A program made the translations under genes and the position numbers. From contig NZ_JAJCVJ010000001.1 in NCBI RefSeq assembly GCF_020567425.1, positions 558,001 through 622,000 on the forward strand: DNA of 64,000 bases, written 5' to 3'. Positions 16,968 to 50,289 of the stretch are shown in pieces. Under the pieces are notes generated by a model. The model was not told the origin of the DNA, searched no databases, and saw only the letters and a list, made by a program, of their open reading frames with translations. Numbering within the stretch: position 1 is the stretch's first letter; each line of letters opens with the position of its first letter. Source of the stretch: Salinirubrum litoreum. Lineage in GTDB: Archaea > Halobacteriota > Halobacteria > Halobacteriales > Haloferacaceae.

Positions 16968-17117
16968 GACTCGGGAGACGGATTTTACTGGTCGGTCGTG
17001 GATTCGGGTGGAGGTGTAGGTTCGGTGGGAGAGAACTCGTTCAGATACGTCGTGGAGAACTTTGCCGAGTCGGCCGCAGACGACTCTGCCGGATCGGTCG
17101 CAGACGACGAGAGCTGA
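16968..17117 (+). other. Open in-frame tail after the copA stop
   Basis: Directly after the copA TGA the same frame runs 49 codons to the next TGA at 17115. Its composition is haloarchaeal (YVVENFAESAADDSAGSVAD near the end), unlike the arginine-rich translations of other spacer frames. A GTG at 16998 could start a 39-residue protein, but the TTTTAC box at 16983 is too close for that. It may be a relic, a readthrough extension or chance. An imperfect 24-nt duplication (GCCGAGTCGGCCGCAGACGA and a variant) lies inside it. Confidence 0.3.
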
Positions 17118-17170
17118 AAGCCCCCGGCGTCTCGACCACTGTCAGAAGCACGCTCTGACGAACCTTCGTC

Positions 17171-17475
17171 ACCGGCGCTGTGCGCCGGTTGCTGGCGGGA
17201 CCTCCGGTCCCGGTCTGTCGTCGGCGCGCCGCGCCGACTGCCAGCGAGACCCTCGGTCTCGCCCTGTTCGCAGGCTCACGAAGACCGCCGCGACTCGGTG
17301 TCGTTCGAGAGAGCGAAGCTCTCTCGTGATGACGAGAGACGCCGAGGGCGTCTCTCGAACCACGCGCCTCAGTCGGCGAGTCAGCAAGCTGACTCGCCTC
17401 CGTCCGGTGCTTACGTCGTCGCGGCGGGGTCGAGATTCTGGAGAGCGAAGCTCTCCACCGTCTCGTTCACGAGAC
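17171..17475. repeat. Array of nine short perfect hairpins
   Basis: Within 305 bases there are nine inverted repeats with tiny loops. Arm pairs are 17171-17178/17182-17189, 17196-17202/17206-17212, 17220-17227/17231-17238, 17244-17251/17255-17262, 17306-17314/17318-17326, 17333-17343/17347-17357, 17375-17385/17388-17398, 17439-17446/17450-17457 and 17460-17466/17469-17475. Stems are 7-11 bp and all perfect. Loops are TGT, TCC, GCC, CTC, GAA, GAG, AA, GAA and TC. The stems differ in sequence, so this is repetition of shape and not of sequence. No gene is visible here. Confidence 0.85.
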
Positions 17476-17556
17476 CGCCGGCCCCTTCCAGTCCCACCCG
17501 AACTCTGCGACCCATCGTGTCGTCACTGGTGGTCACCCGGCGTGTCGTCTGGCGGA

Positions 17557-17690
17557 CTGGAATCCGGCAGTCGCAGTGATCCCCGAACCTCCCCGACTGC
17601 TGACGGCGCGCCCTGCGAGCAGACCACTCGCTGTCGCTCGGACACTGCTCGGGTCGGTTCGCCAGCAGATCGCGTCCTGTCGGATTCCGG
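17557..17690. ncRNA. Dispersed structured element 1, copy A
   Basis: About 135 bases, closely related to 50133-50265. An outer helix pairs 17559-17566 (GGAATCCG) with 17681-17688 and extends inward through GCAG/CTGT to 12 bp with one G-T pair. An inner hairpin pairs 17616-17622 (CGAGCAG) with 17645-17651 around a 22-base loop. A further pair, GCAGTCG/CGACTGC, lies in the left part. Copy B keeps the outer and inner helices while changing the paired bases. The conserved unpaired words include GTCGCTCGGACA and CGCCAGCAGATCGCGTCC. The transcribed strand is unknown. No promoter is obvious. Confidence 0.6.
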
Positions 17691-17742
17691 GCTGTCGTCG
17701 GCTGTTCGGGTGACTGGTGATGCGCGCGGTTTTACCGAAAGT

Positions 17743-17839
17743 CCGGCGCGTGCGAGGAGCGCGCGCGAGGGAGGAGACCGGGCGGTGCGGAGAGGTCCCC
17801 GAGGCTGGGGAGGACGAGGTGCGGATGCGGTCTGCGGTG
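17743..17839. repeat. Dispersed GC-rich element 2, copy A
   Basis: Related to 49292-49400. Shared features in order are CCGGCGCG, a GCGCG-type inverted arm pair, GCGCGCGAGGGA, and the core GAGGCTGGGGAGG followed by GAGGTGCGG. It starts 53 bases after element 1 and ends at a 24-nt tandem repeat. Its GGGGAGG is complementary to CCTCCCC in element 1, so the two could pair in one transcript. Confidence 0.55.
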
Positions 17840-17887: not shown

Positions 17888-17959
17888 GCGGTGCTGGTGC
17901 GGTTGCAGTTTGCGGTGCTGTCGCGGTTGCAGTTTGCGGTGCTGTCGCGGGTCGCAGTC
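17888..17959. repeat. 24-nt tandem repeat, three units
   Basis: Unit GCGGTGCTGTCGCGGTTGCA plus GTTT. The unit at 17912-17935 is the reference, the one at 17888-17911 differs at two positions, and 17936-17959 matches over its first 15 bases and then diverges. It forms the tail of element 2 copy A. The rest of the spacer up to 18073 shows nothing else. Confidence 0.75.
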
Positions 17960-18073
17960 TGCTGTCCTGTCGCTGTTGGCTCCACCGAGTCCACGAACCC
18001 AACGTTCACCCGATCACCCCACAGTTCCGCCGTCACCCAAACGATTAGGCCGCGACCGCCCACACTCGGGGCC

Positions 18074-50132: not shown

Positions 50133-50265
50133 CTGGACTCCGGCAGTCGCAGTGCGCCCCAGGCCTCCCCGACTACTGGCGAGGCGGGCTGCGAGGTGGT
50201 CCTCGCCGTCGCTCGGACACACCTCGGGGCCGGTCGCCAGCAGATCGCGTCCGCTCGGAGTCCGG
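50133..50265. ncRNA. Dispersed structured element 1, copy B
   Basis: Homologue of 17557-17690. The outer helix pairs 50135-50142 (GGACTCCG) with 50256-50263; the inner hairpin pairs 50192-50198 (CGAGGTG) with 50220-50226. Relative to copy A, the outer helix changes one A-T pair to C-G, and the inner helix changes C-G to G-C and A-T to T-A, always keeping pairing. The words GTCGCTCGGACA (loop) and CGCCAGCAGATCGCGTCC are unchanged. It is followed by four tandem GCGTCTC heptamers (50290-50317). No gene overlaps it. Confidence 0.6.
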
Positions 50266-50289
50266 GGCTGTCGGAGGGTCTCCTGCTCG

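Follow-up and report, generated by a model that had tools for sequence, protein, structure and literature searches.

Mitochondrial double-hairpin elements and GC clusters are small, dispersed folding repeats that nest in one another. The HEARO and omega RNAs of IscB and TnpB elements are structured, linked to mobile elements, and present in many dispersed copies. To our knowledge, dispersed structured repeats have been little described in archaea. REP/REPIN sequences and their RAYTs form a multicopy, extragenic system with hairpins in single-stranded DNA or RNA, and clusters of these sequences also occur (PMC3116915). The candidate structured RNAs of comparative genomics are defined through covariation and conserved unpaired words (PMC2864571).

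The element described here, core A, was found in a 64,000-nucleotide stretch of Salinirubrum litoreum (the window; C1:558001-622000 of the 4.06-Mb genome, designated G000). Like REP/REPIN sequences, it is multicopy, extragenic, and hairpin forming. In contrast to them, it is a single asymmetric series of helices lacking the inverted REP doublet, it conserves an internal loop where REPINs conserve palindromic ends, its copies are old and diverged, and no single-copy RAYT adjoining them was found. Core A shares the small, dispersed, and nested character of the mitochondrial elements, but it is larger, has an asymmetric loop with invariant words, is conserved across genera, and resides on an archaeal chromosome. 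It resembles HEARO and omega RNAs in being structured and present in many dispersed copies; however, no accompanying protein gene was recognized at the copies, and Rfam scans of the window and loci gave zero HEARO matches. Core A is defined in the same manner as candidate structured RNAs and Rfam families, but with tens of dispersed copies per genome. The size, divergence, and genus spread of the family reveal that the loop is constrained, whereas the arms are free to change. With core A, one can readily test whether an archaeon maintains a single folded site, of RNA or DNA, in tens of copies, and what binds it.

Table 1. Features of core A and associated sequences (window positions, or contig and position in G000)
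Feature	Position	Strand	Details
Core A copy 1	17558-17693	- (proposed RNA strand)	R1, 138 bits; 62-copy alignment A2; ∼136-nt folding core
Core A copy 2	50134-50268	- (proposed RNA strand)	R1, 132 bits; solo core without M1 or M2
Helix P1	17559-17566 / 17681-17688		Closes internal loop; both sides change in 6/6 modeled pairs; blind pair 17563-17684
Helix P2	17594-17604 / 17661-17672		Blind pairs 17601-17664, 17603-17662; swapped wholesale in other genera
Helix P3, apex	17616-17622 / 17645-17651		Blind pairs 17620-17647, 17621-17646
Helix P4, apex	17624-17631 / 17636-17642		Blind pairs 17625-17641, 17630-17637
Invariant internal-loop word	17580-17595		TCCCCGAACCTCCCCG, i.e., TCCCC..CCTCCCCG; kept in G000 copies and genera g17, g10, g3
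Invariant internal-loop word, 3' side	17671-17677		CGCGTCC; CGCRTCC in g1, g10, g17
M1	17116-17499	-	Signature GTGGGACTGGAAGGG at 17483-17497 (-); order-wide family; nested hairpins inserted
M2	17743-17824	+	CGCGCG..GAGGGAGG[stem]..[stem]CGAGGCTGGGGAGG; hypervariable paired stem
IS200-like Y1 transposase genes	C1:1707883-1708140; C2:1-345; C2:12904-13242		Two at contig ends

Size, location, and age of the family

The two stretches of the window that an earlier note had reported as homologous both match the covariance model R1 (Table 1). Across G000, R1 retrieved 62 matches at ≥89.9 bits, followed by a sharp gap and then a handful of truncated relics. The genome therefore holds ∼62 near-complete copies of ∼135 to 136 nucleotides (nt) each, plus ∼5 truncated ones, with two of the copies in the window. 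A sequence search of G000 with copy 1 gave at least 40 matches at 77 to 100% identity. The copies lie mainly on C1 and C2 (n = 4 on C4; n = 1 on C3) in both orientations, and all are intergenic except one that overlaps an open reading frame predicted by our simple gene caller. Pairwise identity averages 0.75, while nearest-neighbor identity has a median of 0.85 and a maximum of 0.91; core A thus lacks the groups of near-identical recent copies expected of a MITE. Because no pair is more than 91% identical, the family is old, with its fold maintained locus by locus and no recent burst.

The intergenic placement would suit a cis-regulatory RNA, such as a 3' untranslated region (UTR) or leader element of adjacent genes, for which a mild excess of loci between convergent genes (23/67) could also speak. 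We consider this reading highly improbable, as the 67 loci include all four neighbor-gene orientations (14, 23, 15, and 15), distances vary, and the right-hand gene would transcribe core A at 38 loci and the left-hand gene at 37, with no preferred orientation relative to neighboring genes in G000. A riboswitch or UTR element, which would show a fixed orientation and distance relative to a class of genes, was rejected on these grounds.

Plasmid and phage collections gave zero matches to the element, as did exact-pattern scans of genome and viral contig collections, which possibly do not include G000 itself. Rfam 15 scans of the window and of 16 loci returned nothing above the gathering score and nothing relevant at a relaxed threshold, and no description of the element was found in the literature searched. 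Relatives of the neighboring peptidase (from Natronocalculus, Haloferax, Halobaculum, Halorubrum, and others) are at most 76% identical and had no convincing core at their loci; thus, an empty site in a close relative was not found.

Compensatory change in the helices

Two helix blocks (P1, and P2 with a variable apex) enclose an internal loop, both sides of which are nearly invariant. Between the window copies, the P1 arms change from GGAATCCG/CGGATTCC to GGACTCCG/CGGAGTCC (50135-50142 / 50256-50263), and the P3 arms change from CGAGCAG/CTGCTCG to CGAGGTG/CACCTCG (50192-50198 / 50220-50226). These are the outer and inner helices with complementary changes that the earlier note had described. 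Both are real, but its two-helix picture omitted P2 and P4, and most of the loop words that it held to be unchanging proved to be arms of P2 (CGCCAGCAG) and P4 (CTCGGAC), which differ elsewhere in the family. On neither strand does the window copy have a better minimum free energy than shuffled sequences. In copies L079 and L069, the P2-P4 hairpin is mostly deleted, and P1 and the loop words remain.

In a model-fitted alignment of about 62 to 65 copies, standard pairs account for 93.3% of cells over 33 pairs, 19 of which change on both sides. The alignment contains 132 double-change cells, compared with 35 after column shuffling and 6 to 18 in slid controls, which bears out the compensatory maintenance proposed earlier. 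Because this alignment was fitted to the model, the covariation test was redone blind and free of structure on a MAFFT alignment of the copies and their flanks. In the core, the blind scan recovered the nested, antiparallel pairs of Watson-Crick type with z scores up to 18, the top pairs being those in Table 1 together with 17619-17648, 17624-17642, and 17627-17640. Inside the core, the scan also picked up the P3 double change as echoes across columns, along with a few adjacent-column links; the remaining strong signals come from the 3' flank and its border, where the copies split into subfamilies. At least 76 independent Watson-Crick pair-type switches were counted on a FastTree tree of the copies, which is only approximate owing to possible recombination between copies. 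Compensatory change in the core A helices thus exceeds both phylogenetic and sliding controls, as expected of a structured RNA. Comparison of the copies demonstrates that the fold is conserved and that pairing, rather than arm sequence, is what is kept, across genera too.

Template switching between hairpin arms, combined with gene conversion of hairpin blocks, could in principle generate such pairing with the fold unselected at each site. Arm alleles do recur blockwise (e.g., the ∼eight versions of the M1 helix), copies L092 and L111 have nearly identical flanks and different cores, and two adjacent P3 pairs change together. We nevertheless regard a mutational origin as unlikely, given the many pairs with differing pair types and the number of switches among them. 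In addition, the loop words are fixed across genera despite unrelated arms, and mutation alone keeps no unpaired words. In-place selection on the copies is the simplest account of their being old yet paired, possibly with a contribution from gene conversion of whole hairpins.

Homologues in other genera

A scan of 170 genomes with the pattern TCCCCRNNCCTCCCCG retrieved multiple copies in genera g17 (G016, G124, and G125), g10 (G009, with one in G180), and g3 (G002, G084, and G085), while the reversed control gave a handful of hits. In the g17 homologues, P1 is GACGGTCGGG/CCCGACCGTC, P2 is GGCGGGCGC/GCGCCCGCC, and the apex ranges from ∼18 to 91 nt. In those of g10, P1 is GACAGTC/GACTGTC and P2 is CGGCGGGCC/GGCCCGCCG; a distant match in G009 retains CAGTAC.TCCCCACACCTCCCCG and CGCGTCCTG, with P1 and P2 wholly different and still paired. 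The g3 copies resemble core A in having the loop word and a hairpin like P2; P1 was not found in them. Distant homologues of core A are therefore present in g17 and g10, and probably in g3, all genera of the taxonomic family that includes G000.

Between genera, TCCCCRNNCCTCCCCG and CGCRTCC are fixed, and all helices are replaced. In a cross-genus alignment of 32 sequences, with apices trimmed by us, 92.2% of cells are paired and double changes number 113, versus 9 to 33 when slid. The cross-genus model R3 is specific: of 392 genomes searched in the order, it matches only 3 (G000, G016, and G009). The occurrence of the same loop on entirely different arms in related genera suggests that something in the cell needs the fold, whether formed by RNA or by DNA. 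According to the earlier note, chance or a DNA relic would be favored if no other homologues turned up or if their helices were broken; the searches instead retrieved the 62 copies in G000 and more in other genera, with helices intact yet rewritten.

Several matches were rejected. R1 matches L131, L132, and L135, from other genomes, were judged nonhomologous, as they align mainly at a CTCGCTGTCGCTCGG hairpin, with tRNA-like ends in the alignment, while L134 and L136 each align to a single hairpin and were also judged nonhomologous. Lone TCCCC..CCTCCCCG hits in several genera fall within sequence that looks coding by eye. At L131, L132, and L135, which come from other genera of the family, the P4-like CTCGCTGTCGCTCGG hairpin adjoins tRNA-like sequence.

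Composite repeats and core B

Core A adjoins an order-wide haloarchaeal repeat, GTGGGACTGAAAGGGG...GGGGGCTTTC, and ∼41 of 60 copies are embedded in a composite of fixed order and orientation, with M1 on the left and M2 on the right. The earlier description as a structured RNA, or as a mobile element that folds as RNA or DNA, is strongly supported in its compensatory structure but overlooked this larger composite. Copy 2 of the window has flanks without similarity and no M1 signature nearby. The M1 signature (GTGGGACTGAAAGGG, minus strand) is present at up to 64 copies per genome in 89 of 195 genomes belonging to the order, and the reversed control was almost always 0. M1 is bracketed by a helix with arms in ∼eight versions; this order-wide dispersed folding repeat with hypervariable paired arms has zero matches in Rfam. 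The M2 stem likewise occurs in many perfectly paired versions, with rare wobble (4 G.U and 9 A.C). In many copies, P0 (GTCACCCG/CGGGTGAC) has the appearance of inverted ends; it is missing from solo cores.

The M2-M1 slot has an alternative occupant, core B, a 75-nt fold (CCAGTCGA..GGGCTGGCGCGA..CGACTGGT) that is more conserved than core A. At least 33 copies were found (L198-L212 and L343-L362), in G000 only among 146 genomes, and some carry nested 32-nt hairpin insertions. Core B was not accepted as a homologue of core A, as the slot is similar but sequence proof is absent.

Small nested hairpins (GTTCGAGAGAGCGAAGCTCTCTCGTGATGACGAGAG..CTCTCGAACCACG) are common to positions 17290-17480 of the window and to L178 of another genus. 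The outer ends of the composite (window 17890-17965; L211) carry degenerate short tandem arrays (GCGGTTGCAGTTTGCGGTGCTGTC; GACCGAGTTCTCTGCGACAGATTC). In G016 of g17, outward-facing pairs of M1 signatures occur at a spacing of 240 to 330 bp (C1:566114/566446, 924784/925025, 2077234/2077507, 3244853/3245164, and 3317951/3318233; C3:177532/177776).

Strand and nature of the folded molecule

In 12 of 62 copies (11 by word scan plus the degenerate L095, added by eye), the minus strand carries a conserved TATA-like block, CTCGGGGTTTATAAGC..TTTCGAACGTTTTTATACCCCTCACAGACGG, 38 to 66 nt ahead of the core, which we take to be of the haloarchaeal BRE/TATA kind; the plus strand gave 1 TATA-like hit. Because the 12 minus-strand blocks face the core, an RNA would probably be read from the minus strand, opposite to the strand assumed earlier. 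Folding also favors the minus strand (SCI, 0.495 versus 0.410; proposed structure, -42.5 versus -38.2 kcal/mol). Read in this direction, core A mismatches comprise 47 G.U versus 34 A.C, a weak wobble excess that is nearly strand-symmetric; in the distinct M1 arms of G000, the counts are 5 versus 6. Based on mismatch counts, promoter block, and folding energy, we dropped plus-strand RNA as the favored reading, and the strand of the earlier note is probably wrong. All 12 block-bearing copies have the exact M1 signature, versus 13 of the 50 others (Fisher P = 2.4e-6), an association that could also arise if the complete copies share descent. Both window copies are without the block, which was also absent from the g10 and g17 copies; core B has a TATA-like hit in 1 of 43 copies.

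With roughly even confidence, we infer that core A is an old multicopy noncoding element whose working form is one folded strand, most likely a minus-strand RNA. An asymmetric internal loop bearing fixed words is RNA-like, and we put the chance that the working molecule is RNA at about one-half. Counting against RNA are the weak wobble excess, the equally good pairing of promoter-free and flank-free copies, the missing block in g10 and g17, the absence of a preferred orientation toward adjacent genes, and the shuffle-like folding energy of the window copy. Such an RNA would begin with the core and reach M1 ∼59 nt further on. Its loop (GGAYGCG // CGGGGAGGNNYGGGGA, minus strand) would be a putative binding site for a host factor, which the helices may merely serve to present. 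A minority of copies would have their own promoter, the rest being transcribed from elsewhere or persisting as silent or DNA-level copies, and past spread may have occurred within composite haloarchaeal intergenic repeats. More tentatively, and with some doubt, core A may represent a structured RNA that lies outside Rfam and is shared by several genera of haloarchaea, with an invariant asymmetric loop on helices completely rewritten between genera and a few promoter-bearing copies feeding many silent, structure-constrained ones in the manner of SINEs.

The main rival to an RNA is a DNA-level hairpin, in which folded single-stranded DNA matters, either as an in-trans transposase substrate (REPIN/MITE-like) or as a site for a chromosomal protein, and transcription is incidental. 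We consider this possible, if somewhat doubtful. Helix pairing is as good in copies that lack the promoter block or the flanks as in the others, which a DNA hairpin would explain, as it would the near strand symmetry of mismatches, the almost wobble-free M2 stems, the nearly exclusively intergenic placement on four contigs in both orientations, and the outward-facing M1 signatures of g17. However, near-identical copies and signs of recent movement are absent, the loop asymmetry does not resemble a simple palindrome, and target duplications were not found. A RAYT reading was rejected because the three Y1 transposase matches of G000 (Table 1) have no tested M1, M2, or core A words within 1.5 kb. 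These genes lie at or near contig ends, and the two located at ends probably caused the assembly to break there.
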